64,000 nucleotides of DNA, taken from positions 310,001 to 374,000 of the forward strand of contig NZ_SOSC01000001.1 of NCBI RefSeq assembly GCF_005049285.1. The letters run 5' to 3'. The first letter of the stretch is position 1. Each line of letters opens with the position of its first letter. The translations under genes and the position numbers were made by a program. Under the pieces are notes generated by a model, which saw only the letters and a program-made list of their open reading frames with translations, was not told where the DNA came from and did no database searches. Below are positions 1 to 28,952 of this stretch, one piece after another. Source of the stretch: Halorientalis salina. Its GTDB lineage: Archaea > Halobacteriota > Halobacteria > Halobacteriales > Haloarculaceae.

Positions 1-308
1 ACGCCGCCGACGAACGCGGTCCGCGAGACGGGATAGGTCCGTATCGTTTCGAGTTCGCCGCGCTGGGCGTCGGCGAATATCGCCCGATAGCCGAAGGCAA
101 AGGCCAGCACCGGGACGAGCACCTCGACCGGTCGCAGCAGGTCGAGCGTGAGCGGAAGGTACCCGCCGGTCCCGGCGGCGACGACCAGGCCGACGATCAC
201 CAGAAAATAGCCCGCTGCGAGCACCGCGATGGTCCGGGTCCGCAGGAGCGTGCGGAACTCCCGCTGGGCGAACACCAGCGCGGTCCGACCGGCCTCGCGC
301 ACGGTCAC
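1..308 (-). CDS. nosY: NosY-like ABC-2 permease, partial (continues past left edge)
   Basis: Membrane permease expected to pair with the NosF ATPase next to it, in the ABC transporter that supports maturation of the copper enzyme nitrous oxide reductase. Only the first 102 or so codons are inside the window. I read a GTG start whose GTGA overlaps the nosF stop codon, a sign of translational coupling. Two hydrophobic stretches (about residues 27-46 and 60-79) are followed by a FADAQRGELE and TYPVSR segment typical of ABC-2 permeases. The remaining membrane segments lie off the left edge, so intactness cannot be judged. Assignment to NosY rests on the segment pattern and on operon position. Confidence 0.75.
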   Translation of the reverse strand, partial: MTVREAGRTALVFAQREFRTLLRTRTIAVLAAGYFLVIVGLVVAAGTGGYLPLTLDLLRPVEVLVPVLAFAFGYRAIFADAQRGELETIRTYPVSRTAFVGG

Positions 309-1045
309 GCTGACCCTCCCGTCCCGTCGACTCGCGTCGCCACCTCGCCGGATTCATGGCTCACGAGCGCTGACATGGCGTCTTCGAGGTCAGCCGCGCC
401 CGTCTCCGCGAGCAACTCGTCGGGCGCGCCCGTCGCAGCGATCTGCCCGCGGTCGATCAGGACGGTGTCGTCGGCGATTCGCGAGACGGCCCCGAGGTCG
501 TGGGTCGCGACGATGACGGCCGCGCCGTCGTCGGCGAGTTCGGAGATGGTCTCGGTGATGTGGTGACTCATCATCGGGTCCAGGCCGCTGGAGGGTTCGT
601 CGAGGACCAGCAGTCCCGGATCGCCGATGGTCGCCTGTGCGATGCCGAGCAGGCGCGTCATACCGCCCGAGAGGGCTTCGACGCGCCGGTCCGGGACGCC
701 ACTGAGTCCGACGCGGTCCATGGCCGATTCGGTGTCGACGGACTCGCCCACGAGGTCGCCGTAGAACGACAGCGTCTCGCGGACGGTAAACTGCGGGCGA
801 AACGCCGGTGCCTGGGCGAGGTAGCCGACCGGACGCGTCCCGGTCGACGGTCGGTCGACGCTGCCGCTGTCGGGAACCAGCAGTCCCGCGACTGCGCGCA
901 GCATCGTCGTCTTGCCCGAGCCGTTCGGGCCGATGAGACACGTCACGGTCCCGGGGTCGACGCCGAAGGTAACGTCCTCGATGACGGTGAGGTCGCCGAA
1001 ACTGACGGTGACTGCCTCGACGCTGAGTCCGACTGTCTCTGTCAT
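305..1045 (-). CDS. nosF: NosF-like ABC transporter ATP-binding protein
   Basis: Cytoplasmic ATPase of the NosFY transporter, 246 aa, the normal length for the family. Walker A GPNGSGKT lies at residues 39-46, the Q-loop in YLAQAP at 75-80, the signature LSGGM at 125-129, Walker B LLVLDEP at 145-151 and the H-loop His at 182. All motors are intact, so it should hydrolyse ATP. It overlaps nosD upstream by ATGA (1042-1045) and the permease downstream by GTGA, so the four nos genes read as one minus-strand operon. The motifs alone would fit any ABC-2 exporter ATPase; the nosD and nosL neighbours give the specific role. Confidence 0.88.
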   Translation of the reverse strand: MTETVGLSVEAVTVSFGDLTVIEDVTFGVDPGTVTCLIGPNGSGKTTMLRAVAGLLVPDSGSVDRPSTGTRPVGYLAQAPAFRPQFTVRETLSFYGDLVGESVDTESAMDRVGLSGVPDRRVEALSGGMTRLLGIAQATIGDPGLLVLDEPSSGLDPMMSHHITETISELADDGAAVIVATHDLGAVSRIADDTVLIDRGQIAATGAPDELLAETGAADLEDAMSALVSHESGEVATRVDGTGGSA

Positions 1046-2934
1046 GGGTGTGTTGCGTTCAGTTTCGATAGTTGCTCCGGATTCACCGGTTGTGCCAGCG
1101 TTGCAGTGTCGACGATGCCGCTTTCGCGGAGCCCGGGGACGGCGCTCTGGACGTTCCGGATCATCCCGACCGCGGGCGACTCCCTGAGCGTGACCGTCCC
1201 GCTCGCGTTCAGGAGCGCCCCCTCGATGTCATCGGTCGGGTAGTAGGCCGCATCGAGGGTCCCGTCGCCGTCCGCGTCCCGGCCCGGAAGCGGCCCCCAG
1301 TAGTTACCGCGGTCCTCGGTCCACAGGCGAATCGGGCCGCGAAGGGGCTGCACCTGAACCTCGTTGTCGACGATGTCGTTCCGGGCCACCTCGTTGGAGG
1401 GCAACAGCGTGCTCGCCCGCAAGCCGAGGTCGTTCCCGGCGACGACGTTCCCCGTAATGACCGACCGGTCCGCGCCGAAGGTGATTCCAATGCCGTTGTC
1501 GACGACCACGTTGTCGGCGATGTAGGAGGCGGACCCGGACATCGAGAGTCCGATATCGTTCCGGCGCACGTCGTTCCCGAGGAGCACGTTCCCGCGGGGA
1601 CGCGTCATGACGATGACGCCCGCGTTCGTCCCCCGCATGGTGTTGTTCGCCACCACCGACCCGGAGGTGTACATCTCGTGGACGCCGTACCGCATGTCCA
1701 CCATACGGTTGTCCCTGACGACGATGCCCGGCGTGCGGTGGGTGTAGACGCCGTCTCGACCGCCCTGAACCGAGATGTTCTGGACCACGATGGGATCGTA
1801 CATCGCGACCACGCCCATGAAGCCCTCGACCCACTCCTCACTGCCGCGCACGGTACTGTCGCGAACCACCGTCCCGGAACTGTTGTGGACGATGAGCCCC
1901 GTGGCCGGCGTGTCGACGTGGACGCCCGAGACGAGCGACCCGGATGCGTTCTCGAACCTGATGGCCGAGTCGCCGCGGCCGTAGGCGACCCGGATGCGTT
2001 CGTCCCAGTCGTCGCCCACCTCCGCGAGCGACCGCGTCCCGTTCGGCCCGACTCCCGATACGCGGAGGTCGGTGACTGCCGACCCCGACGCTCGCATCTC
2101 CAGGACCGTCCCAGTCCCCGGACCCCTGAGATGAGTCTCGTTGCCCGCGCCCGTGATCGTCACCGGTTTGTCGACGGTCAGGTTCACGTCGTAGGTCCCC
2201 GGCGGCAATCGGACGGTCGTGTTCGGCTCCGCCCGTTCGATGGCTGTCGACAGGTTCGGCGCGTCCTCGCCGACGACGACGGAGACCGGCCGGTCGGCCA
2301 GCGTGGCTGTCCGCCGCACGCTCTCGTCAGCCCACGCCGAGCGGTTGTTGACGATGGTGTCGCGTTGCTCCCCGGGATCCGTGCGTTGCGTATCGGTCCG
2401 AGCCAGCAGTTCGTTCCACTCGACGACCCTGCCGTCGTACTCGTCTGCGAACGACCGCGCTGCGTCCGGGGACGAGAAGGGGACGACGGCTGGACCACCC
2501 GGTGTCCGGGCGCGGCTCTCGACGACGAAGTGGGCCTGACGCGCCGGGACCCACGAGATGTTGATGCTGCTGTTCGCGACGAGATAGTCACCTGCCGCCA
2601 GGGTCGGTTTGGCGCCGGTGTAATCGGTTACCAGTACTTCGATCGGACGCCCGAACTGCCGTGCAGTTCCCCGGGCAGCCAGGTGGTCCGCCGCCGCGTC
2701 GACGCCGTAGTAGCCGACGACGTACTGATACTGCGTGTAAAACACCTGTGCCTGCGGGATGCTGTAGCCAGCGTCCTCGGCCTGGAGGACGTCCACGCCC
2801 GACAAGCCGAGCCGCAGCGTCTCGTCGAACGGCACTGGCTGCACGCTCCGGTCGACGTCCGGGGAGACGGTGAACCCGGTCGCCATCACCGCCAGGACGG
2901 CCAACAGGGCGACGAGCGCGTACTTGACGTCCAT
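1042..2934 (-). CDS. nosD: NosD, secreted beta-helix protein with an N-terminal NosL-like segment
   Basis: Exported accessory protein for nitrous oxide reductase maturation, 630 aa. A hydrophobic N-terminal segment (residues 4-22) acts as signal or anchor. Residues about 225-560 are a right-handed parallel beta-helix (CASH/NosD repeats) with many short repeats of the V..N.......I...G type. Oddly, residues about 98-178 resemble the NosL fold: the stretch FSSPDAARSFADEYDGRVV (153-171) closely matches FSADDDAGSFADEYGGERV in the NosL encoded just upstream. This suggests a NosL-like domain fused into NosD. The NosL CxxCGM copper motif is not present in that segment. Overlaps nosF; 3 bp separate it from nosL. 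Confidence 0.88.
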   Translation of the reverse strand: MDVKYALVALLAVLAVMATGFTVSPDVDRSVQPVPFDETLRLGLSGVDVLQAEDAGYSIPQAQVFYTQYQYVVGYYGVDAAADHLAARGTARQFGRPIEVLVTDYTGAKPTLAAGDYLVANSSINISWVPARQAHFVVESRARTPGGPAVVPFSSPDAARSFADEYDGRVVEWNELLARTDTQRTDPGEQRDTIVNNRSAWADESVRRTATLADRPVSVVVGEDAPNLSTAIERAEPNTTVRLPPGTYDVNLTVDKPVTITGAGNETHLRGPGTGTVLEMRASGSAVTDLRVSGVGPNGTRSLAEVGDDWDERIRVAYGRGDSAIRFENASGSLVSGVHVDTPATGLIVHNSSGTVVRDSTVRGSEEWVEGFMGVVAMYDPIVVQNISVQGGRDGVYTHRTPGIVVRDNRMVDMRYGVHEMYTSGSVVANNTMRGTNAGVIVMTRPRGNVLLGNDVRRNDIGLSMSGSASYIADNVVVDNGIGITFGADRSVITGNVVAGNDLGLRASTLLPSNEVARNDIVDNEVQVQPLRGPIRLWTEDRGNYWGPLPGRDADGDGTLDAAYYPTDDIEGALLNASGTVTLRESPAVGMIRNVQSAVPGLRESGIVDTATLAQPVNPEQLSKLNATHP

Positions 2935-2937
2935 CCC

Positions 2938-3618
2938 TCACATCCCGAGCTGGGCGATCAGTTCCGGTGTCACGTCTTCGACCGCCACACGCTCGCCCCC
3001 GTATTCGTCGGCGAACGACCCCGCGTCGTCGTCGGCCGAGAACGCGATGAGGTCCTGACCCATCGCGCCCTCGACCGACGAGCCGGCGACGAACGTCACC
3101 TCGCTGGCCGTGGTGAAGGCGTCGGCTTCGGGATGCGTCGAAATCATCGTCGTGCCCTCGTCCTCGAAGACGTCGTACTCGACTGTCGAGTAATCGGTGA
3201 CGTACATGACGGATCGCTCCCAGCCGCGGTCCTGGCGCTCGAAGTCGTACTGAAACGCCTCCCAGGTGCTGTCGAACCGCGCCGGGTTCTCGTGGCCGGA
3301 AGGCTCGTTGTCGGGATAGAAGATTTCGGTGGTCGGTCCCGGGTGGTTCGGGATGATCATGCCACAGACCTCGCAGGCGTCGTCCGTGGTCAGGGTGATC
3401 GCGTCCGGCAGGTCCGCAGTCGTCGTCTCGCCGCCGGGGCCGGTCGTCTCCGAACAACCCGCTAGCGCCAGGGCCGCGCCGGCAGCGACGCCGCCGAGCA
3501 GCCGTCGCCGCGAGAGTCCGGCCGTCGGCGTCGTTCCACAAGCTCCGCGCGTTTCGTGCTCGCAGGGTCCGGTCGTCCGTCCGTGTGAACAGGGTTCGTG
3601 AGGGTTGTCGTCTTGCAT
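2938..3618 (-). CDS. nosL: NosL, Tat-exported copper-binding lipoprotein
   Basis: Copper chaperone-type lipoprotein of the nitrous oxide reductase system, 226 aa. A twin-arginine motif SRRRLLGG (36-43) precedes a hydrophobic stretch and a lipobox LAGC with Cys55, so it should be exported folded and lipid-anchored on the outer face. The copper motif CEVCGMI is at 82-88. The C-terminal FADEYGG (202-208) is the conserved NosL end. Unusual is a Cys/His-rich stretch (Cys10, His12, Cys19, His21, Cys27) before the Tat motif, which would be cytoplasmic or cleaved off; there is no internal Met before the RR motif to start from. First gene of the operon. Confidence 0.9.
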   Translation of the reverse strand: MQDDNPHEPCSHGRTTGPCEHETRGACGTTPTAGLSRRRLLGGVAAGAALALAGCSETTGPGGETTTADLPDAITLTTDDACEVCGMIIPNHPGPTTEIFYPDNEPSGHENPARFDSTWEAFQYDFERQDRGWERSVMYVTDYSTVEYDVFEDEGTTMISTHPEADAFTTASEVTFVAGSSVEGAMGQDLIAFSADDDAGSFADEYGGERVAVEDVTPELIAQLGM

Positions 3619-10495: not shown

Positions 10496-10726
10496 TCAGA
10501 CGAACGTGCGAACCTGCCGAACGATGTCGTCCACGTCGTACGCGTCCTCGTGTTTGTCGAACACCGTCTCCCCGCCGACGCTCACCGTGAACACCCCGTT
10601 GTCGCCGGTTTTCAGCGTCACCGCGTCGAGTTGTTCGCCGAACGTCGTCAGGAGCGCGTGCTGGACGGTTTCGGCGCGGTCGAGGAAGCCACAGGGAACA
10701 CAGTACTCGATTTCGACGGTGGTCAT
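10496..10726 (-). CDS. SelT/SelW/SelH family (Rdx-type) redox protein
   Basis: Small thioredoxin-like protein of 76 aa. The family CxxC is present as CVPC (Cys9, Cys12), here with cysteine in place of the eukaryotic selenocysteine. The later GDNGVFTVSVGGETVFDK stretch is the conserved G-x-F-E-V-x-x-x-G region. I start it at MTTVEIEY (10726); longer upstream frames are implausible because they overlap the next gene's end. Probably a cytosolic thiol-redox protein; the substrate is unknown. It lies 35 bp after a membrane-protein gene on the same strand. Confidence 0.88.
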   Translation of the reverse strand: MTTVEIEYCVPCGFLDRAETVQHALLTTFGEQLDAVTLKTGDNGVFTVSVGGETVFDKHEDAYDVDDIVRQVRTFV

Positions 10727-10761
10727 ACGAGAGGCATGGAGTGGCGCAGGTTTGAACCCTC

Positions 10762-11448
10762 CTACTGACCGAACGGCCGCCAGTACAGCAGGCCGACCGT
10801 CACCACGAACACGATCGTCGAGAGCCCGTAGGACTGGGAGTAGACGGCGCTCGCGACCGCGGTCCCGCTGCCGAAGACGCCCGTGGCGATGCCTGCCAGC
10901 ACCGGCCAGGTGCAACTGACGCAGGACAGCAACCCGAGCAGTCCCGTCACGGCCGACCCGGCGGCGTCGAGGACCGTCGCGTAGACCAGATACGCCAGCG
11001 CGACGTAGCCGACGGCCTTGAACGGAAGTATCGAGACGGTGAACAGCGATCCGCTGTAGAACAGGGCCGGACCCCATCCCGGCGGGAGGTCGAAGCTGGC
11101 CGAGAACCCCGCCATTGGCCCGCCCATCGGGCCGTTGATCAGACCGCCGACGTACGCAAGCACCGCGAAGTAGCCCACTGCGAGCACCAGACCGATGCGC
11201 CGGTGGCGAGCGCTCGCGGCGGCGGGTGTGGTCCGGACGATGGCCCAGAGGCCGACGTTGATCCAGACGAACGGATAGAGCCAGTAGCGGACGGCACCGG
11301 CACTGGTCAACGTACCGTCGAACCCGACGACGTACAGGCTGAGGAGCAGCAACTCGAAGTTACAGACGAGAGCCACCCAGAGCAGCGTCTCCGTGTCGGG
11401 GCGCAAGCGGTCGTACCATTGCGAAGCGGCGATTGTGTCAGTTGTCAT
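10762..11448 (-). CDS. Membrane protein linked to heme O synthase gene
   Basis: Integral membrane protein, 228 aa, with about six or seven hydrophobic helices; I do not recognise a named family with certainty. A Gly/Met-rich loop GPMGGPMAGF and a CVSCTW motif with two cysteines inside a late helix stand out. The start at MTTDTIAA (11448) overlaps the stop of the CtaA-CtaB fusion gene by ATGA (11445-11448), so the two are translationally coupled, which suggests a role in cytochrome oxidase biogenesis. The CxxC could bind copper or heme, but this is only a guess. Confidence 0.8.
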   Translation of the reverse strand: MTTDTIAASQWYDRLRPDTETLLWVALVCNFELLLLSLYVVGFDGTLTSAGAVRYWLYPFVWINVGLWAIVRTTPAAASARHRRIGLVLAVGYFAVLAYVGGLINGPMGGPMAGFSASFDLPPGWGPALFYSGSLFTVSILPFKAVGYVALAYLVYATVLDAAGSAVTGLLGLLSCVSCTWPVLAGIATGVFGSGTAVASAVYSQSYGLSTIVFVVTVGLLYWRPFGQ

Positions 11449-12881
11449 AGCGCGAGTGCGTCGACGACGACAGCTACCAACACGGCACCCAGGTAGGCGT
11501 TCGAGGCGTGGAACGCACGGAACGCCGCGTCCTCGGTCTGCTCGCGATGGAGCCTGATGACTGCCCACAGGAAGACCCCGCCCAGCGAGACCGTCGTCGC
11601 GGCGAACAGCCAGCCCAGGTCTGTCAGCGTCGCCAGGACCGTCGCGGCCAGCAGCGTCGCCGACAGCCAGAGCAGGATGTGCTTGCGCGTGGTCGCCTCA
11701 CCGCGGACGACTGGCATCATCGGGAAGCCGCCCGCCTCGTAATCGTCCTTGTACGCCAGCGCGAGGTTGTAGAAGTGCGCGGGCGTCCAGACGAAGATGA
11801 GGCCGGCGAGTGCAAGCCCGGGGAGTCCGATCTTCCCGGTGACGGCCGCCCAGCCGATGAGCGCAGGGAGCGCGCCCGCCGCCCCGCCGATGACCGTGTT
11901 CTGGACGGTGTTCGGTTTGAGGACCAGCGTGTAAATGACGCTGTAGAACAGGATGGCCGACAGCCCGAGCGCTGCCGCGAGTGGATTGATCTGGAGGAAC
12001 ACGCCGACGGAGACGGCCGCCAGCGCCAGGCCGAAGGCGACCGCGTTCCGGACCGGAATCTGGTGGGTCGCCACGGGCCGGTCGCTCGTTCGGTCCATCC
12101 GCTTGTCTTTCTCCCGTTCGAGGACGTGATTGAAGGTCCCGCTCGCGCCGATCGCGAGTACACCACCACCGAGCGTGAGGACGACGGTTCGGACCGTCAG
12201 CGCCGGCCCCGCTGCCAGGGCCATCCCCGCGGACGCGACGAGACAGAGCAGCCACATCAGTCGCGGTTTCATCAACCGGAAGTACGCCAACCCGATGTAC
12301 TTCGCACGCGTGAGCGGGCCCGCGTTCAGGACCGCCTCGGTCGTCTCCTCGCCCTCGTTCGCCGTCGCCACTGGTTCCTCGTCGAGGGTCAGGTCGGCCG
12401 TTCTGGTCGCCGTGTTTCGCTCGTGTTCGGGTTCGAGGTGCCAGGCCAGAGCCAGCGTCAGCCCGGCGAAAATCGCCATCCCGGTTACGAGGTGTGCCAG
12501 CGGGAGCGGATCGGCAGCGCCGTTGAGTGCGACGAACGCGCCGATCGCGATCTGGACGGGATAGAGCGCGAGCGACGCGGCGAGCGCGGCCTTGACACGA
12601 GTGGAAACGTCCGCTCGTCGCAGGCCGACGATTCCCGTGACGACGGCGAGGACGCCCACCAGCGACGCCACGGTCCGGTGGGTCCACGCGACCAGTAGCG
12701 TCGGCGTCGAGAGCGTGGGCGTCCGGTGACAGACGGGCCAACTCGAGCAGGCCGCAGCGGCGTCCGTCAGCGCGGCCGTCGCACCGAGTACCACCAGCAA
12801 ATAGACCCCCATCGCGGTACTGGCCAGTAGAGTCACGAACCGTGGACGGGGGAGGCGCTGGAACACGGCTGATTCTCTCAC
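11445..12881 (-). CDS. ctaB: CtaA-like/CtaB fusion: protoheme IX farnesyltransferase (heme O synthase)
   Basis: Makes heme O by farnesylating protoheme, the first step to heme A for cytochrome oxidase. At 478 aa it is far longer than a plain CtaB (about 290). Residues 1-150 resemble half of a COX15/CtaA heme A synthase with four helices and conserved His (THRTVAS, LAHLVTG). An acidic linker follows, and residues about 190-478 form the UbiA-type prenyltransferase with NHVLEREKDKRMDRTSDRP and YKDDYEAGGFPMMP as the two diphosphate-binding regions. GTG start at 12881, with a TATA-like CATAAG about 27 nt upstream. Divergent from coxB. Confidence 0.92.
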   Translation of the reverse strand: MRESAVFQRLPRPRFVTLLASTAMGVYLLVVLGATAALTDAAAACSSWPVCHRTPTLSTPTLLVAWTHRTVASLVGVLAVVTGIVGLRRADVSTRVKAALAASLALYPVQIAIGAFVALNGAADPLPLAHLVTGMAIFAGLTLALAWHLEPEHERNTATRTADLTLDEEPVATANEGEETTEAVLNAGPLTRAKYIGLAYFRLMKPRLMWLLCLVASAGMALAAGPALTVRTVVLTLGGGVLAIGASGTFNHVLEREKDKRMDRTSDRPVATHQIPVRNAVAFGLALAAVSVGVFLQINPLAAALGLSAILFYSVIYTLVLKPNTVQNTVIGGAAGALPALIGWAAVTGKIGLPGLALAGLIFVWTPAHFYNLALAYKDDYEAGGFPMMPVVRGEATTRKHILLWLSATLLAATVLATLTDLGWLFAATTVSLGGVFLWAVIRLHREQTEDAAFRAFHASNAYLGAVLVAVVVDALAL

Positions 12882-12993
12882 TATCTGAATCTTGGAGCGC
12901 GACCACTTATGCCCCCCGCTTTACCCGCGCAGGCTGCCGAACACCTTCGTGGAAACCGCTATAGGGAGGGGGTCCTCGGGAGAAGACAGCAGC

Positions 12994-13000
12994 TATTTAA
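12994..13000 (+). promoter_or_regulatory. TATA box of coxB
   Basis: TATTTAA lies centred 28 nt before the coxB ATG, the spacing expected for a leaderless haloarchaeal transcript, and so supports the start at 13025. Confidence 0.75.
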
Positions 13001-13024
13001 GCCCGAATTCCTAACGCCCGAACA

Positions 13025-14017
13025 ATGCTAAACCGCAAGCGTGCCGGGCTCCTGGGGCTTTTCGGCCTTGGCCTGTTTCTGGCTGCGGTCGAACCGGCCA
13101 CAGCACAGTCGACGGAGTCGACGATCACCGAGGGACTGATCTGGGGACTGAACGAGAAACTCGTCTACGCTGCAGTCCCCATCACGGTCCTCGTCGAAGG
13201 GATCCTGATTTACACGGTCTGGAAGTTCAGCAAGAACGACGAGGCGAAACCGACCCAGGAGAACCGCCGACTGGAGATCACCTGGACGATCGCCACCGCC
13301 ATCATCCTGCTTTTCGTCGGCGTGGCGACCTACCAGGTGCTCGGAAGCCCCTACGTTTCCGCCGGGTCACAACAGGCGATCGAAGAGCCGGGCAACGTCG
13401 AGGAGATCGAGGTGTACGGACAGAAGTACGTCTGGAACTTCGAGTACTCGGTCGACGCTGAGGGAGTCACGGCCTCCGATCTGACGCTCGAAAACGTCAC
13501 GTTAGATGAGGCAACCGTAACGAACACCTCTGGAGACGGAATCCAGGTCGAAGATGCGGAGGTGTCCGGCGAGAAGATCGAGAGCGGCACGCTATTCAAC
13601 GGCGTCGTCACGGGCCTCGATAACGAGACCCGCGACTCGTTGACCGAAAACGAGACCGAGACGTTCTCGGACGTCACCGTCGAGTCGGCCACCATCTCGG
13701 ACGCGACCATCCAGAACGGGACAGTGAGTTCCTCCGAGACGATGAAAATGCCGGCGAACCGTGAGGTCACGCTGAACATCACCTCCAACGACTGGCTGCA
13801 CTCGTTCCACGCTCCGGGCCTCGGCCTCAAGCAGGACGCGTTCCCGGGCGAGTGGAACCAGATCAGGACGAAAGCGACCGAAACCGGTGAACACCAGCTC
13901 TACTGCGCCGAGTACTGTGGCTCCGGCCACTCCGACATGCTCGGACAGGTCGAAGTCGTCTCCCAGGAAGAGTACCGCGAGTGGAAAGTCGATACCTGGC
14001 TCGAAGACCAGCAGTAA
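13025..14017 (+). CDS. coxB: Cytochrome c oxidase subunit II with a glycosylation-rich insertion
   Basis: Heme-copper oxidase subunit II, 330 aa, facing outside, carrying the CuA centre. A signal-like N-terminus is followed by two helices (about 45-65 and 83-105). CuA ligands are visible: His259, Cys294, Cys298, His302 and Met305 in CAEYCGSGHSDM. Between the WNFEYS strand (about 138-143) and MKMPANRE (240) sits an insertion of about 90 residues made of short V/L/I-T/S-x-x repeats and five N-x-S/T sequons; ordinary subunit II has only a short loop here. Divergent from ctaB; subunit I is not in the window. Confidence 0.94.
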   Translation: MLNRKRAGLLGLFGLGLFLAAVEPATAQSTESTITEGLIWGLNEKLVYAAVPITVLVEGILIYTVWKFSKNDEAKPTQENRRLEITWTIATAIILLFVGVATYQVLGSPYVSAGSQQAIEEPGNVEEIEVYGQKYVWNFEYSVDAEGVTASDLTLENVTLDEATVTNTSGDGIQVEDAEVSGEKIESGTLFNGVVTGLDNETRDSLTENETETFSDVTVESATISDATIQNGTVSSSETMKMPANREVTLNITSNDWLHSFHAPGLGLKQDAFPGEWNQIRTKATETGEHQLYCAEYCGSGHSDMLGQVEVVSQEEYREWKVDTWLEDQQ

Positions 14018-23950: not shown

Positions 23951-25108
23951 TCACGGCGATTCGGTCCACCACTCGTCGCGTCTGTCGCTCGCGTCGGCGT
24001 TTCGGAACGGGGCTGGGAGGTCACGCTCGGCGAGGCCGAGCGCCTGACCGAACCAGTACCCGGTGTGCCAACCGACGGCCTCCGTGTCGATGTCAGCCAG
24101 CGCAATGGTGGCGTTCGTGTAGTACTCGATGGCTCCGTCGCCGTCGGTATCCGATCCGAACCGAGCCAGCGAACTCCGTTCGGTTTCGCCGTGCCGTAAC
24201 CGGTCGGGGAACTCGACGACGACGTTGGCGTCGCTTCGGTTGTCGACCCGCACGATCGTGACGTTCTCGGGCACGTCGTCGTCCTCGTCTTTGATCCGTT
24301 CGTAGTAGTCGATGACGTGCCCGACCTGCTCGCGGGCGTCGGCGCGGTCGCTCGCTCGGAGGTCCTCGGTCGCGGCGAAGACGCGGAAGTCGGTCGTCTC
24401 CCAGGGATAGCCGCGCTCGCTGGCGTTGGGTCGGGCCGTTCGATTCACCGTCTCGGTCGGCTGCATGTACTGCTCGGGGTCCTCACCGTGCCGAATCCCG
24501 AGGACGTGACCGAACTCGTGGATCATGATCTCCTCGGTACTCGCCGTGTCGTACCCCGATTCGATCAGTACCTCCGCCGGCGGGTCCGCAGTAGTGTCCT
24601 CCGTGAGCAGCGGCGCACACCCTAGCACGCGCTCGCCCTGTTCGATCCCGCAGCTATCGACCGAATCTCTGATCTCGACGTGTACGTCGGCGTCGTCAGC
24701 GTCGTCGACGGTGACGAACTCCACCGTGTAATCCCCGTACTGGGCGTTCGTGTTCCAGTAGTCGAGGGCGTCCGAGAGCGGGGTTCGGTAGTCGATTTCG
24801 CCGTCGCCTTCCGAAACGAGCGCGACGGTTACCGTGTCCACTCCCCAGGGGGTATCAGCGGGGTCGATGTCCGGCGTCGGCGTTGTCTCCGGACTGTTCC
24901 GGGTCATCGACGTGGTTTCAGCGGTCGCTGTTGCTCCCGCCGTCGTCGGTCTCGACGCGGTTTCGGTGGCTTGCGGACCCGGTGTCGAGTCGGTTCCGCC
25001 GCCGTCACCGTCCGTGACACGAGGAGTCTCGGCTGTCCCGGTCGCCCCCGGGAGCGCCGAACAACCGGCCAACACCACCAACAGGGTAACGAGAAACACC
25101 CGTTTCAT
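23951..25108 (-). CDS. Secreted matrixin-like zinc metalloprotease lipoprotein
   Basis: 385 aa. I start it at MKRVFLVTLL (25108), which gives a proper signal peptide with lipobox LAGC at residues 15-18; a TTTT promoter element sits about 29 nt upstream. A Thr/Ala/Gly-rich linker (about 20-85) precedes the domain. The zinc site HEFGHVLGIRHGEDP is the extended HExxHxxGxxH of metzincins, and a YMQP about nine residues later could be the Met-turn. The protein should be lipid-anchored outside the cell. Target unknown. Residues after 280 contain a second, unassigned domain. Confidence 0.82.
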   Translation of the reverse strand: MKRVFLVTLLVVLAGCSALPGATGTAETPRVTDGDGGGTDSTPGPQATETASRPTTAGATATAETTSMTRNSPETTPTPDIDPADTPWGVDTVTVALVSEGDGEIDYRTPLSDALDYWNTNAQYGDYTVEFVTVDDADDADVHVEIRDSVDSCGIEQGERVLGCAPLLTEDTTADPPAEVLIESGYDTASTEEIMIHEFGHVLGIRHGEDPEQYMQPTETVNRTARPNASERGYPWETTDFRVFAATEDLRASDRADAREQVGHVIDYYERIKDEDDDVPENVTIVRVDNRSDANVVVEFPDRLRHGETERSSLARFGSDTDGDGAIEYYTNATIALADIDTEAVGWHTGYWFGQALGLAERDLPAPFRNADASDRRDEWWTESP

Positions 25109-25200: not shown

Positions 25201-25617
25201 ATGAAATACACAATACAGGCTGCAGTCACTGGGGAATTCGACGAGGTCGTCGACGCGACGAACGCTGCACTCGAAAGCGAGGGATTCGGCGTCCTCTGTG
25301 ACATCGACATCCAGGCGACACTCGAAGAGAAACTCGGTGAGGCGTTCCGTCAGTATCGGATCCTCGGTGCGTGTAATCCCTCGCTTGCATCTAGCGGATT
25401 GGCCGAGGAAATCGAACTTGGTGCCCTTTTACCCTGTAACGTCATCGTCTACGAGAGTGATGATGGTGACGTCGTGGTGAGTGCGGTCGACCCGGGACAG
25501 TTGGTCGGCATCGCGGACAACGATGCGCTCGATTCAATCGCGACAGAGGTCACCGAGCGATTCGACCGCGTACTGACCGCTGTGACAGATGAGTTCGAAC
25601 CCGCACCGGAGGCCTGA
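25201..25617 (+). CDS. DUF302 domain protein
   Basis: 138 aa, a single DUF302 domain. Visible hallmarks are GFGVLCDIDIQATLEEKLG, RILGACNP and LLPCNVIVYE, with Cys in both of the latter, followed by a DPGQL stretch and a C-terminal helix. DUF302 proteins are cytosolic and often sit in heavy-metal or redox-stress loci in bacteria and archaea; their biochemistry is not established. It is 6 bp upstream of a Met-rich SHOCT membrane protein on the same strand, so the two are surely one operon and begin the metal/redox island. Confidence 0.9.
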   Translation: MKYTIQAAVTGEFDEVVDATNAALESEGFGVLCDIDIQATLEEKLGEAFRQYRILGACNPSLASSGLAEEIELGALLPCNVIVYESDDGDVVVSAVDPGQLVGIADNDALDSIATEVTERFDRVLTAVTDEFEPAPEA

Positions 25618-25623
25618 TTTGGG

Positions 25624-25977
25624 ATGTCAGCATCCGACCAACTGGATCCGACGACGATACTACTCCTGGTCCTCGGCGCGGTCATCCTCCTACCCATGCT
25701 GATGATGGGGCTGGGTTTCGGCGGGATGATGGGATACGGCGGGATGATGGGCCAGTATAGCGGTACAGGTGGCTGGTGGCCCTTCGTCGGGATGCTCATG
25801 CCACTCGCCTTCCTGCTCGTGCTCATCGGCGGTGGCTACCTCGTCTTTCGGCGCACGAGCGGGACGCAGTCGCCTCACAACTCCGCGATGGAGGAGCTCC
25901 GAATGGCGTACGCTCGTGGCGATCTCACCGACGAAGAATTCGAAGCCCGCCGCGAGAAACTCGAACGATCAGAGTGA
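25624..25977 (+). CDS. Met-rich membrane protein with C-terminal SHOCT domain
   Basis: 117 aa. Two hydrophobic helices (about residues 11-34 and 55-77) are joined by a Gly/Met-rich loop with repeated GGMMG units, and the C-terminus MEELRMAYARGDLTDEEFEARREKLE is a SHOCT motif, a short oligomerisation domain. The Met cluster could bind Cu(I). It follows the DUF302 gene after 6 bp. Similar SHOCT membrane proteins occur beside copper and stress genes in haloarchaea, but the function is not proven. Confidence 0.85.
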   Translation: MSASDQLDPTTILLLVLGAVILLPMLMMGLGFGGMMGYGGMMGQYSGTGGWWPFVGMLMPLAFLLVLIGGGYLVFRRTSGTQSPHNSAMEELRMAYARGDLTDEEFEARREKLERSE

Positions 25978-26213
25978 CCGCTGCCGAACCAACATAGAAC
26001 CCGTTCGAGCGGGCTCTCATCGAACAAGGAGTATCGAAACGACACGTCTGGGCGGGAGCGAGCTTCGAATCGAAGAAACGAGCCCGTTTCAGCTTGTGAT
26101 CGCGAGTAGTAATGGGAATAAACCACAATCACGTATCCTTCAGTACGGTGGATGCCACCCACTTCGCACGGATGTCGCTTGTCGCTAACCACGGATCAAA
26201 CGGCCCAGTAATC

Positions 26214-26963
26214 ATGACACATCACACTCGACGTCGATTCTTGGGGCTCGTCGGTGCCGGCGCAGTCGCTAGCACGAGCTTCGTTCAGTCAGCGCACGCA
26301 CAGCAGACACCCGTCGTGGAGATGGGGAACAATTACTTCGACCCGATCGGTCTCCGAGTCGATCCCGGGACAACCGTTCGATTTGAACTCGCAGAAGGGG
26401 CACATTCCGCCACGGCCTACTCGGATCGCATTCCGGACGGTGCTTCTGCCTTCGATAGCGGCACGATTTCACAGGGACGCTTCGAACACACGTTCGAAAC
26501 TCCGGGGACGGTTGATTACTACTGCATCCCGCACGAGTCGACTGGGATGGTCGGACGGATCGTCGTGGGTAGCCCTGGAGGGCCGGCGGAGGAGGGCTCG
26601 ATCCCGTATGGAGAGGTCCCGTCGAGTGAGGCCATCGTCGAGCAGGGAGCAGTAGCCTACGGCTCGACCAGTGACGGGAGCAGAGATGGGGGCGATGGAA
26701 TGATGGGACCCAGCGGCCACGGAATGATGAATGACCGCAATGGGGGAGGAGTGGGGGTTCCCGTTGTCGGCGGGGGGCTCGGAATGCTGGGGATTCTCGG
26801 TGGTGCACTCTACTGGCTTCGAGGTCGAAGCACCCCATCGGAGAATCATAGCTCGCCGAGAGAGGTCCTCGAGACCCGCTATGCGAGCGGGGAAATCGAT
26901 GAGGAAGAGTATCGACGTCGCCGCAAGCGCCTGGATGGTACTGGTGAGGACTCCTCTGAATGA
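26214..26963 (+). CDS. Cupredoxin (halocyanin-like) fused to membrane helix and SHOCT domain
   Basis: 249 aa. A Tat signal (TRRRFLGLVGAGAVA, residues 4-18) leads to a blue-copper domain (about 35-120): His in EGAHSATAY, then YYCIPHESTGM with the Cys, His and Met ligands. A Met/Gly-rich segment (GMMGPSGHGMMND) follows, then a C-terminal helix (about 180-200) and a SHOCT motif (LETRYASGEIDEEEYRRRRKRL). I chose the ATG at 26214; the frame extends upstream, but the Tat signal begins here. It is probably anchored with copper site outside and SHOCT inside. The 236-bp spacer before it shows no gene. Confidence 0.88.
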   Translation: MTHHTRRRFLGLVGAGAVASTSFVQSAHAQQTPVVEMGNNYFDPIGLRVDPGTTVRFELAEGAHSATAYSDRIPDGASAFDSGTISQGRFEHTFETPGTVDYYCIPHESTGMVGRIVVGSPGGPAEEGSIPYGEVPSSEAIVEQGAVAYGSTSDGSRDGGDGMMGPSGHGMMNDRNGGGVGVPVVGGGLGMLGILGGALYWLRGRSTPSENHSSPREVLETRYASGEIDEEEYRRRRKRLDGTGEDSSE

Positions 26964-27229
26964 TATCTGTTTGAAATCGATGATTCAGTCGATGCCCAGT
27001 GCTTCGAGAACCCCGGGTTCGGGTCATCACGAAGCCCCTTCTGTTTCCGAATCATCTCGGGACACTGGGCCTGTACTGATCGGGGAAGCTGAAACTCCGG
27101 TCCGCAACCGAACGCTAAAAGTCACGCACTCGCCAGATTTCCTCACCCGCCGAAAGGCAGGTGTATTCACTTTGCTGTCTCTATACCGGTCGGGAGCGTC
27201 AAGAGACGGGAAACTGGGTCGTTACCGAG
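26964..27229. other. Spacer between converging cupredoxin genes
   Basis: This 266-bp gap between two converging cupredoxin genes holds only short frames with poor composition. I see nothing functional in it. Confidence 0.4.
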
Positions 27230-27898
27230 TTAGTGAGTATGGCCCAGTGCTTCGTTGCACATATCGTTGAGCTCCGATATCTTCTCGCGGACCCGCTCCG
27301 GCTTGTCTTCTGGGGAGTCTTCGAGCGCCGGTTGATCGTGTGCGTCGGGTTCGCCGACGATGACACTACCGATCATGCCAGTAGTCTCGTGGGGCGTGCA
27401 GTAGTAGTGGTAGACACCCTCGGTTTCGAATGTGTGTTCGAAAGTCGCTCCATCCTCCGAAAGGAGGCCACTATCCCAGGCAGCGGCACCGTCGGGGACG
27501 AGTTGTGGCTGGTCGTTATCGGGGTGGTACGCCGTCGTGGAGTGGTTGCCGCTCTCGTTGACGAACGTTACCGTCCCACCGACGTTGACTCGGGCGACGT
27601 GGGCCTCGAAGTGCTCCCCATCGTCCGCTGTTATCATCGCTACGCTGGCGGAGTCGGTCGGGTCACCAACCGCTTCGTCGTGTCCGTGTCCGTCATCCTC
27701 GTGGCCACTTCCCCCGTCATCGTGTCCGGACCCCTCGGTTTCTTCATCGTGTTGGTCTTCCGTGTGGGTGGACGTCGAGTCCGAGTCCGCCGGGCTGCTG
27801 TTGTTCTGTGTCCCCGTACATCCTGCAAGCCCGACGACCGCCGCACTACCGGTCACTCCGAGCACCCGTCGGCGCGTATACTGTAAATCAGTTGGCAT
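27230..27898 (-). CDS. Halocyanin-type blue copper lipoprotein with His-rich linker
   Basis: 222 aa. A Tat motif (TRRRVLGVTG, 8-17) and lipobox LAGC (Cys27) mark an exported lipoprotein. Residues about 42-78 are a linker very rich in His, Asp and Glu (repeats like GHDDGGSGHEDDGHGH), a likely Zn/Cu/Ni sponge. The blue-copper domain has His in GNHSTTAYH and the Cys-His-Met set in YYCTPHETTGM. A C-terminal amphipathic tail carries a Cys and ends GHTH. An AAGGTGA ribosome binding site lies about 6 nt before ATG 27898. Divergent from the winged-helix regulator, sharing the operator at 27954. Confidence 0.9.
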   Translation of the reverse strand: MPTDLQYTRRRVLGVTGSAAVVGLAGCTGTQNNSSPADSDSTSTHTEDQHDEETEGSGHDDGGSGHEDDGHGHDEAVGDPTDSASVAMITADDGEHFEAHVARVNVGGTVTFVNESGNHSTTAYHPDNDQPQLVPDGAAAWDSGLLSEDGATFEHTFETEGVYHYYCTPHETTGMIGSVIVGEPDAHDQPALEDSPEDKPERVREKISELNDMCNEALGHTH

Positions 27899-27953
27899 CG
27901 TCGGTCACCTTACATATGTGACTACGAGAGGGCTACAAAAAGACGAGAACCCT

Positions 27954-27974
27954 GTTTTGCACGCGACGCAAAAC
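27954..27974. promoter_or_regulatory. Inverted-repeat operator between halocyanin and regulator genes
   Basis: Perfect inverted repeat GTTTTGC-N7-GCAAAAC. It lies 9 bp upstream of the TATA-like TTAAGTATA (27985-27993) of the winged-helix gene and 56 bp from the halocyanin start, so one regulator dimer could control both genes. The most natural candidate is the winged-helix protein encoded next to it. Confidence 0.6.
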
Positions 27975-28027
27975 GGTCCGTTACTTAAGTATAGTTGATC
28001 GAGTAGCTAGCATCGCGAGGAACAGCT

Positions 28028-28378
28028 GTGTCCAAAGACGATCGTGCTGAGGAGCTTCTGGAACTTCTGGGTGAGGAGCGCGTCCGCCAGATTCTGGCAG
28101 CCACGAGCCGTGAGCCACTTTCAGCGAAAGAACTGAGTGAGGAATGTGACGTTGCGCCCTCGACGATTTATCGCCGTGTAGAGGACATGGTTGCCACCGA
28201 TTTGCTCGTCGAACAGACACATATCGAAGCCGATGGGAGCCACCACAGCGTCTACGAGGCGAACGTCGATCACCTCGACATCGATATCGAGGACGGAACG
28301 ATCGAGATTCGGAAACACGTTCGCGAGGATGCATCTCAGCGGTTCTCGCGCATCTGGAACGACATCCGGGACACCTAA
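28028..28378 (+). CDS. ArsR-type winged-helix transcriptional regulator
   Basis: 116 aa, cytosolic. Residues about 10-70 form a winged helix: RVRQILAATSREPLSAKELSEECDVAPSTIYRRVEDM is the helix-turn-helix with the PLSAKELSE and STIYRRV hallmarks of the haloarchaeal ArsR/HTH_20 group. No cysteine-based metal site is apparent, though His residues occur (HIEADGSHHS). A GTG start at 28028 is preceded by GAGG at a spacing of 7 nt. It is followed, 2 bp later, by two small membrane proteins, a recurrent arrangement in which the membrane proteins may be sensors. Confidence 0.88.
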   Translation: MSKDDRAEELLELLGEERVRQILAATSREPLSAKELSEECDVAPSTIYRRVEDMVATDLLVEQTHIEADGSHHSVYEANVDHLDIDIEDGTIEIRKHVREDASQRFSRIWNDIRDT

Positions 28379-28380
28379 CC

Positions 28381-28680
28381 ATGCACATCGAACTCGTCAT
28401 CGCGAAACTCATCACAGTCGGACTGGGACTGTTGATAACGTATCAGGCATACCGTGGGTACAGAGTCCACGGTAGCGAACCGATGATTTACGTGGCTATC
28501 GGATTCCTCTTCATCAGTGTCGGGTCCGTAATCGAAGGTGTTCTCTTCGACGTACTCGGGCTGTCCATCTTCGTGGCAGGGACTATCCAGACGTCTATTG
28601 TCGCGGTGGGCATGCTCATCGTTCTCTACTCGCTATACGGACGAATGTCCCAACCAGCAGATGGAGGAGATTACTCGTGA
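28381..28680 (+). CDS. Small three-helix membrane protein (paralogue 1)
   Basis: 99 aa, three hydrophobic helices, with TYQAYRGYRVHGSEPMIYVAIGFLFISVG in the middle. It matches the neighbouring 91-aa protein in layout (helix, YR-rich turn, helix with GF.FI..G), so the two are probably duplicates of a haloarchaeal family (I believe DUF7521). It lies 2 bp after the winged-helix regulator and overlaps the next gene by 4 bp, forming a three-gene operon. It could sense a membrane signal for the regulator; that is inference. Confidence 0.82.
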   Translation: MHIELVIAKLITVGLGLLITYQAYRGYRVHGSEPMIYVAIGFLFISVGSVIEGVLFDVLGLSIFVAGTIQTSIVAVGMLIVLYSLYGRMSQPADGGDYS

Positions 28681-28952
28681 CCAACGGGTGGGAATTCACG
28701 CTGACTGGAATCCGTGTCCTGCTACTTTTATTGGGTATTGCCACGACAGTGATCAGTTTTCGCGCGTATCGTCGGGAACGGACTCGATACTTGCGTGATG
28801 CCACGATCGGCTTCGGGTTCATTACGCTCGGCGTCCTCATAGAGGGGTTTCTCTACCAATTCACAGCGTTACCGCTCACGCAGGTTCATATCGCTGAATC
28901 CGTCGCGTTGGCGTGTGGATTCGCTGTCCTCCTCTGGTCCTTTCTTCGGTAA
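28677..28952 (+). CDS. Small three-helix membrane protein (paralogue 2)
   Basis: 91 aa, GTG start overlapping the previous stop (GTGA). Three helices; the stretch FRAYRRERTRYLRDATIGFGFITLGVLIEGFLYQ parallels AYRGYRVHGSEPMIYVAIGFLFISVGSVIEGVLFD in the gene before it. As its partner, it is likely part of a sensor pair working with the winged-helix protein. Function not established. The 286 bp after it (28953-29238) hold no clear gene. Confidence 0.8.
   Translation: MTNGWEFTLTGIRVLLLLLGIATTVISFRAYRRERTRYLRDATIGFGFITLGVLIEGFLYQFTALPLTQVHIAESVALACGFAVLLWSFLR

Follow-up and report, generated by a model that had tools for sequence, protein, structure and literature searches.

The window analyzed here, a 64,000-nucleotide stretch of DNA from Halorientalis salina, carries seven open reading frames between positions 25201 and 28952, and inspection of the reading frames confirmed each of them at the coordinates first given for it. 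The seven genes form two operon-like modules. Module A comprises three genes, which encode a DUF302 protein, a SHOCT membrane protein rich in Met and a Tat-exported cupredoxin-TM-SHOCT fusion, whereas module B consists of a gene for a halocyanin lipoprotein with a His/Asp-rich linker that is divergent from a winged-helix gene and two genes for DUF7521 membrane proteins. A single seven-gene operon is ruled out by the strand changes and by the separate distributions of the modules. The GC content of the island is 53-61%, and that of most flanking bins 64-70%. Insertion at a tRNA gene was ruled out, the sole tRNA lying at 38.8 kb, as was a direct-repeat insertion site, flanking repeats being absent. 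A 20-nt inverted repeat at 26481/27423 was rejected as the end of a mobile element because it represents a cupredoxin coding motif that is common to both cupredoxin genes in opposite orientation.

The first gene of module A (25201..25617, + strand) encodes a DUF302 protein (PF03625, E 1.1e-24; 86.5 bits, cut-off 23) that is predicted to be cytosolic, signal and TM segments being absent, and that matches 1j3m and 1q9u in fold and sequence (TM-score 0.78-0.79). Cys33, Cys58 and Cys79 are invariant in our alignment A2. Cys58 and Cys79 are DUF302-wide, while Cys33 is typical of this subfamily: it occurs in 42 of 44 DUF302 proteins adjoining the Met-rich SHOCT protein (one of the remaining two being unreadable by the pattern) and is absent from 1j3m and from the genome's own DUF302 paralogue. 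Directly 3' of the DUF302 gene, in an arrangement conserved in relatives, lies the second gene (25624..25977, + strand; PF09851, E 2.1e-8), whose product has two TM segments, with hydropathy peaks at residues 12-30 and 57-75, and a C-terminal SHOCT domain. The Met-rich GGMMG repeats that had been noticed in this protein are indeed present as GGMMGYGGMMG, which reflects an 18-nt tandem duplication at the DNA level.

The third gene of module A (26217..26963, + strand) encodes the fusion, in which a Tat signal is followed by a type-1 cupredoxin domain, a Met-rich linker, a TM helix and a SHOCT domain. Copper-bind (E 1.9e-9) and SHOCT (E 1.6e-8) were detected by Pfam on the same chain, and both SHOCT proteins score above the gathering cut-off of 27 (34.1 and 34.5 bits). 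The best start is the ATG at 26217 with the Tat motif RRRFLG, the start of the longest ORF at 26112 being disfavoured. The Met/Gly-rich linker (approximately 26670..26770, + strand; columns 152-180 of alignment A1) has the sequence GMMGPSGHGMMN, and a single hydrophobic segment spans residues 179-197. The type-1 copper ligands H63, C103, H106 and M111 are invariant among 12 homologues of the fusion, and its matches in the PDB are pseudoazurin and plastocyanin. The AlphaFold model of the fusion, computed with 12 sequences, was of poor quality (mean pLDDT 42), the two SHOCT helices alone being moderately supported, and thus none of our structural claims rests on it. The proposed topology of a Tat-exported cupredoxin, a TM helix and a C-terminal SHOCT domain is supported. 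The suggestion that SHOCT acts as an oligomerisation motif was not upheld, since the paper defining the domain reports no support for such a role from its initial experiments (PMC3581485).

In module B, the halocyanin gene (27230..27898, - strand; Copper-bind, E 6.9e-12) encodes a lipoprotein with a Tat signal and the lipobox LAGC. Its His/Asp/Glu-rich linker (approximately 27640..27817, - strand; residues 28-85) contains 6 His and 17 Asp/Glu per 58 residues, in agreement with the His/Asp-rich character ascribed to it earlier. Tat signal, lipobox, linker and copper ligands are all conserved in the family alignment, including the type-1 motifs SG.H and C.PHE..GM. The two cupredoxins score 50.0 and 46.3 bits with the halocyanin model TIGR03102, below the NCBIfam cut-off of 93.8, yet they exceed the Pfam Copper-bind cut-off and are classified here, by these sequence models, as halocyanin-like. 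The putative winged-helix regulator (28028..28378, + strand, GTG start; HTH_20, E 5.9e-8) shows no TRASH match in Pfam. A metal site in this protein was considered and rejected because its Cys varies among homologues, and none is claimed. The two DUF7521 genes (28381..28680, PF24365 E 3.6e-23, and 28677..28952, GTG start, PF24365 E 2.7e-19; both + strand) overlap by 4 bp and encode three-TM membrane proteins, the first with three hydrophobic segments, that score 82.1 and 69.7 bits (cut-off 27).

Between the halocyanin and regulator genes lies the palindrome GTTTTGC-ACGCGAC-GCAAAAC (27954..27974, unstranded). The core TTTGC-N7-GCAAA was found in every halocyanin/regulator intergenic region examined, with one compensated variant, and changes in the arms are symmetric across the module-B regions. 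The exact form TTTTGC-N7-GCAAAA matches the 3.66 Mb genome only once, at this site. The divergent promoter carries a conserved palindrome, as expected for a metal-responsive regulator with its operator, and we regard this newly found site as a candidate operator of the winged-helix regulator, for which metal-dependent binding is predicted. In Halorarius litoreus, Halomicroarcula rubra and G043 the palindrome is also located upstream of the module A DUF302 gene, and in G043 the halocyanin/regulator site and the DUF302 site are the sole exact matches in the genome, so that the two modules are linked by sequence in some relatives. No such palindrome was found before the window's own DUF302 gene, and therefore module A of the window may escape control by this regulator.

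Both modules recur across Halobacteria. The fusion gene was found in 18 of 146 genomes and in 16 of these 18 has DUF302 within 5 kb; among 31 fusion-gene haplotypes, DUF302 occurs within 10.5 kb in 24, the Met-rich SHOCT protein (SHOCTmet) in 23 and a P1B ATPase in 11, while seven have the fusion and no DUF302. On plasmids, homologues of the regulator at 75-81% adjoin both module A and the halocyanin, and module A is at most 3.4 kb away for six of the seven closest plasmid homologues; a full-length His-rich halocyanin adjoins all six of the best homologues of the first DUF7521 protein. In 32 other 20 kb regions, no DUF302, SHOCTmet, permease-YHS or MarR7343 was found, which together with the recurrence indicates that the grouping is not due to chance. 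Since some of this background was drawn from plasmids that bear the island and contains P-type ATPases, we state only counts for the ATPase enrichment. A 20 kb version of the island is more than 98.8% identical across several genera, and hence the island moves. The coding sequences of the window are under purifying selection (Ka/Ks approximately 0.14-0.19 for the genes of module A, 0.06-0.34 for those of module B; 0.111/0.784 for DUF302 in comparison with L084). The preliminary description had proposed a comparison of haloarchaeal neighbourhoods, in which the genes do recur together, but in G137, a member of the same genus, DUF302 and module B lie on one chromosome approximately 860 kb apart. 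Such unlinked modules would fit an absence of any joint function, with module A as a truncated passenger and the modules juxtaposed by independent insertions at a rearrangement breakpoint. Indeed, module A of the window runs in the opposite orientation to its plasmid counterparts and, besides having no operator, is without the thioredoxin and DoxX genes and the upstream SHOCT genes found in relatives, and the island flanks map to two places approximately 400 kb apart in G147. However, seven intact ORFs under purifying selection and the joint recurrence of both modules in several lineages make this explanation very improbable.

The plasmid neighbours of the gene set include CopA/P1B ATPases, HMA chaperones, AsnC-TRASH regulators, YHS-permease, DUF411 and multicopper oxidase, and a four-helix-bundle copper-binding protein is also among the annotated plasmid neighbours of both modules. 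In G009, module B comes immediately after genes for CopA, AsnC-TRASH and CopZ. These neighbours, CopZ and copper oxidases among them, uphold the shared metal function proposed earlier for the seven genes, which form two modules. The same linkage bears on the idea that the island might be a cassette for electron transport and not for resistance, in which the two halocyanins would serve an oxidase or a nitrite/N2O reductase. Halocyanins are small blue copper proteins that have been suggested as NirK donors (PMC9240420), and NosD/NosL-like genes (0.3-3.6 kb) and cox2 (13 kb) lie nearby in the window. Oxidase or reductase genes are not recurrent neighbours, however, the linkage being to CopA, CopZ, TRASH and HMA genes; moreover, electron transfer does not need Met- and His-rich linkers and the distribution is sporadic and mobile, so that we consider this role quite unlikely. 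Somewhat less improbable, though still unlikely, is the handling of sulfane sulfur or sulfide, in which DUF302, thioredoxin and DoxX would process reactive sulfur and cupredoxins carry electrons, copper linkage being secondary or reflecting copper-sulfide chemistry. The conserved Cys residues of DUF302, the DoxX and thioredoxin genes of haloarchaeal islands, the rhodanese, DsrE, TauE/SafE or MBL-fold genes adjoining DUF302 on Arthrobacter, Streptomyces and Rhodococcus plasmids and the presence of DUF302 in sox clusters of Acidithiobacillia (PMC5037610) are compatible with it. Yet copper genes dominate the haloarchaeal islands, rhodanese and DsrE are missing from the annotations of the plasmid islands read, DoxX and thioredoxin are absent from the window copy, and in Corynebacterium comes DUF302 has CopC, a P-type ATPase and DUF305 as its neighbours.

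In summary, the two modules probably constitute an accessory haloarchaeal island that moves horizontally and confers tolerance to copper and possibly silver. This reading draws on what the sequence itself provides, namely gene content, domain order, copper ligands, topology signals, copper-gene linkage, purifying selection, mobility and the conserved palindrome; from it we infer the identity of the metal and every biochemical step, including the direction of regulation, DUF7521 sensing and the roles of DUF302 and SHOCT. Module B would represent a regulated switch, in which the winged-helix protein may bind the palindrome and control its own gene and that of the halocyanin, the two DUF7521 proteins probably relaying to it a cue from the membrane or from outside the cell, and the halocyanin, which is anchored by lipid and carries the His/Asp-rich linker, might buffer or oxidise Cu outside the membrane. 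Module A would contribute another blue-copper protein, held in the membrane by its TM helix and bearing a Met-rich linker of Cu(I)/Ag(I) type, along with a Met-rich membrane partner that has a SHOCT domain and a DUF302 protein that is cytosolic and contains Cys. Together, both modules may intercept Cu(I) at the membrane and hold it protein-bound and redox-controlled, presumably working with CopA-type export encoded elsewhere in the genome; a CopA gene (71% identity) lies approximately 100 kb from the island. Support for the tolerance reading comes from Haloferax alexandrinus, in which the silver-induced set includes copA-lrp-copZ together with a plastocyanin/azurin protein and a membrane protein with a SHOCT domain (PMC10694973). 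The seven haplotypes with the fusion but no DUF302, and the lack of an ATPase, HMA chaperone or TRASH protein in the 3.8 kb, count against it, as do the missing operator and partner genes of the window's module A and the frequent association of DUF302 with sulfur genes on bacterial plasmids. That the island is a new type of membrane-coupled Cu/Ag sensing-buffering system, in which the extracellular cupredoxins would signal the metal state via DUF7521 and SHOCT tails to the winged-helix regulator and TTTGC-N7-GCAAA would control both modules, appears doubtful. The proposed tolerance island places DUF302, SHOCT and DUF7521, three families whose function is not known, in a functional context that can be tested, and it provides a regulator and an operator as a candidate pair for the response of haloarchaea to copper or silver stress. 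It would represent metal-tolerance cargo that has moved recently between haloarchaeal genera; culturable Haloarcula marismortui, with module A and CopA on pNG600, makes it directly testable.

No paper describing this gene set was found in our literature search, in line with the earlier view that the exact combination had not been described, and several known systems share parts of it. The DUF302 protein has the fold and the conserved Cys motifs CNP and PCN in common with 1j3m and 1q9u, but the metal-island subfamily has the extra Cys33 and copper genes, not sox or rhodanese genes, as neighbours. As in other SHOCT domain proteins (PF09851), a C-terminal two-helix motif follows a TM helix, whereas the defining paper never mentions copper or cupredoxin (PMC3581485). 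The two cupredoxins share the type-1 copper ligand set and Tat export with halocyanins and the pseudoazurin-plastocyanin blue copper proteins, and the His-rich one also the lipobox; they differ in that one is joined via a Met-rich linker and a TM helix to SHOCT and the other has a His/Asp-rich linker. CinA of Pseudomonas putida, a Met-rich copper-linked cupredoxin that is not known to be linked with SHOCT or DUF302, is functionally alike in outline. This methionine-rich azurin-like protein has been linked to CopA (PMC10694973). Finally, the archaeal cop cluster of Sulfolobus solfataricus and Haloferax alexandrinus (copA-lrp-copZ), which combines copA with a TRASH/AsnC regulator and copZ/copT, likely responds to the same stress, and a homologue adjoins these modules in L084, L163 and Haloarcula marismortui pNG600. 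In contrast to that cluster, the island contains no P1B ATPase (none was detected within 10 kb either), HMA chaperone or TRASH protein and thus lacks both of its hallmarks, a P1B ATPase and a TRASH-domain regulator or chaperone; its own regulator belongs to a different winged-helix family and is accompanied by DUF7521 membrane partners.

All seven open reading frames that the preliminary description had placed at 25201-28952 were confirmed there. The first three, all on the + strand, form module A and encode a DUF302 protein, a Met-rich SHOCT membrane protein (SHOCTmet) and a cupredoxin-TM-SHOCT fusion with its best start at ATG 26217, while module B consists of a His/Asp-rich halocyanin gene (-) divergent from a winged-helix gene and two DUF7521 membrane protein genes, a and b (all +). 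GC content is 53-61% across the island and mostly 64-70% in the flanks. Measured against the homologous locus L084, the three module-A genes have Ka/Ks values of 0.111/0.784, 0.122/0.645 and 0.133/0.754, and the module-B genes are likewise under constraint. Synteny with contig G147:C1 of a compared genome is split: it places the left flank (15.5-25.1 kb) near 1.88 Mb and the right one (29.2-38.7 kb) near 2.30 Mb. The island therefore lies at a synteny breakpoint, around which neither a tRNA nor a flanking repeat was found as an insertion mark. The lipoprotein encoded at the left breakpoint, 23951-25108 (-), has a peptidase domain of matrixin-like (M10) type. Elsewhere in the window, 305-3618 (-) carries nos-like copper maturation genes (ABC ATPase, a 630-aa NosL-NosD joined protein that may merit attention, and a NosL lipoprotein) with no NosZ in view, and 10496-14017 carries the cytochrome oxidase assembly genes Rdx (SelW-like), DUF7546, a CtaA-CtaB (COX15-UbiA) fusion and cox2.

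The full fusion gene was present in 18 of 146 genomes of the order, and a hand count placed a gene for a close DUF302 homologue within 5 kb in 16 of these 18. The seven genes form two separate modules, not one operon, and members of the same genus can have them apart, as in genome G137 (DUF302 at 0.56 Mb, module B at 1.42 Mb). Across 84,980 species scanned, 45 haloarchaeal loci turned up, which were merged, where near-identical, into 31 haplotypes including the window. Because these were selected via the fusion gene (a few via the regulator), the following are linkage counts and not prevalence: within 10.5 kb we found DUF302 in 24/31, SHOCTmet in 23/31, thioredoxin in 22/31, a second SHOCT protein in 21/31, permease-YHS in 16/31 and a P1B ATPase in 11/31. 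DUF302, SHOCTmet, permease-YHS and MarR7343 were all absent from 32 other 20 kb regions. The recurrent permease (L068:5658-7052 in one such locus) is of ArsP_1 type with a C-terminal YHS/TRASH-like domain. An exported protein of ~106 aa without a Pfam match (L068:7946-8266, L099:7947-8267) is regularly encoded immediately before the upstream SHOCT gene of module-A islands and is missing from the window.

All six best DUF7521a homologues adjoin a full-length His-rich halocyanin and a winged-helix gene, and in genome G009 genes for CopA, AsnC-TRASH and CopZ immediately precede module B. Among the seven plasmid homologues closest to the window regulator (75-81%), six have a module-A DUF302 gene within 3.4 kb. 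The order on annotated plasmids is DUF7521b, DUF7521a, winged helix divergent from halocyanin, followed, in a somewhat variable arrangement, by DoxX, a small exported protein, SHOCT, DUF302, SHOCT, thioredoxin and cupredoxin-SHOCT; relative to this arrangement module A of the window is inverted and reduced. Most of these plasmid islands carry P-type ATPases, HMA proteins and AsnC regulators alongside, and in Halorarius litoreus they are joined by a multicopper oxidase and by a copper-binding protein of the four-helix-bundle kind. A 20.7 kb version of the island shows 98.9-99.995% identity between loci of Halorussus, Halosegnis and Haloarcula; in Halorhabdus and Halarchaeum, shorter segments match at up to 99.9%. 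Four plasmid or scaffold loci from the first three genera (L068, L069, L071, L073) have 20.7 kb of common DNA at >99.5% identity and, judged by sequence, represent a putative metal-tolerance island that crossed genera very recently. A second winged-helix and DUF7521 pair near copper genes (L163:14081-14674, G098:C1:130098) suggests that regulator and membrane protein make up a unit that can be reused.

From ATG 26217 the fusion protein gains the Tat motif RRRFLG and has a single hydrophobic segment (179-197) ahead of its SHOCT tail, which by established Tat topology agrees with the earlier placement of the cupredoxin outside and SHOCT inside; for an oligomerising role of SHOCT, also proposed there, the SHOCT-defining paper (PMC3581485) holds contrary evidence. 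Ligands H63, C103, H106 and M111 are invariant across 12 homologues, the linker is Met/Gly-rich in all 12, and the closest solved structures are pseudoazurins and plastocyanins. The halocyanin has a Tat signal with lipobox (TRRR...LAGC) and a 58-residue linker in which 6 residues are His and 17 are acidic; its family conserves the same type-1 ligand motifs, and every member has a His/acidic linker. No description of SHOCT with halocyanin, or of DUF7521 by name, was found in the open-licence literature.

The predicted DUF302 model (pLDDT 81) matches 1j3m and 1q9u, with which it has the CNP and PCN cysteines in common. Cys33 is typical of this subfamily (42/44 of copies next to SHOCTmet) and missing in both structures and in the genome's own DUF302 paralogue. 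Several bacterial DUF302 genes adjoin rhodanese, DsrE or TauE genes, another adjoins copper genes, and one occurs in sox clusters of Acidithiobacillia (PMC5037610), so this protein may have a sulfur-related function.

Between the halocyanin and winged-helix genes lies the palindrome GTTTTGCACGCGACGCAAAAC (27954-27974). Every module-B locus read has TTTGC-N7-GCAAA at this position, save L166 with the symmetric variant TTTGGC...GCCAAA, and a second class of module-B palindrome is GATTTGCTGGGTCAGCAAATC. These symmetric changes in both arms argue for a putative dimer-binding site, and from its position we infer that the winged-helix protein binds it. The 3.66 Mb genome has a single mismatch-free TTTTGC-N7-GCAAAA, and 640 kb of further haloarchaeal sequence contained no TTTGC-N7-GCAAA; since a reversed control pattern was equally frequent genome-wide, what counts as evidence is where the motif lies and that it recurs, not how rare it is. 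Genome G043 has just two exact matches, the module-B site and one ~0.4 kb upstream of the module-A DUF302 gene; Halorarius litoreus has both sites and Halomicroarcula rubra the module-A site. No such palindrome precedes the window's own DUF302 gene. As the three module-A copies resemble each other, they may reflect one event. At L245:3635-3838, an ORF of 57-67 aa with a SHOCT-like end lies between the module-A candidate operator and DUF302, and similar DNA occurs in L103 and L168.

The simplest account of the island is copper or silver tolerance, in which Met- and His-rich segments of the external cupredoxins would catch or oxidise Cu, the regulator, with its own operator, would switch the cupredoxin genes, and export would be carried out by CopA, which is encoded 100 kb from the island. 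In Haloarcula marismortui, pNG600 combines module A with two P-type ATPases, and a review describes this plasmid as exceptional among archaeal plasmids in its CopA homologues (PMC4187130); its copy of the island shared across genera (L238) adjoins an integrase gene. In Haloferax alexandrinus, silver induces copA, lrp and copZ, together with a plastocyanin/azurin protein and a SHOCT membrane protein (PMC10694973).
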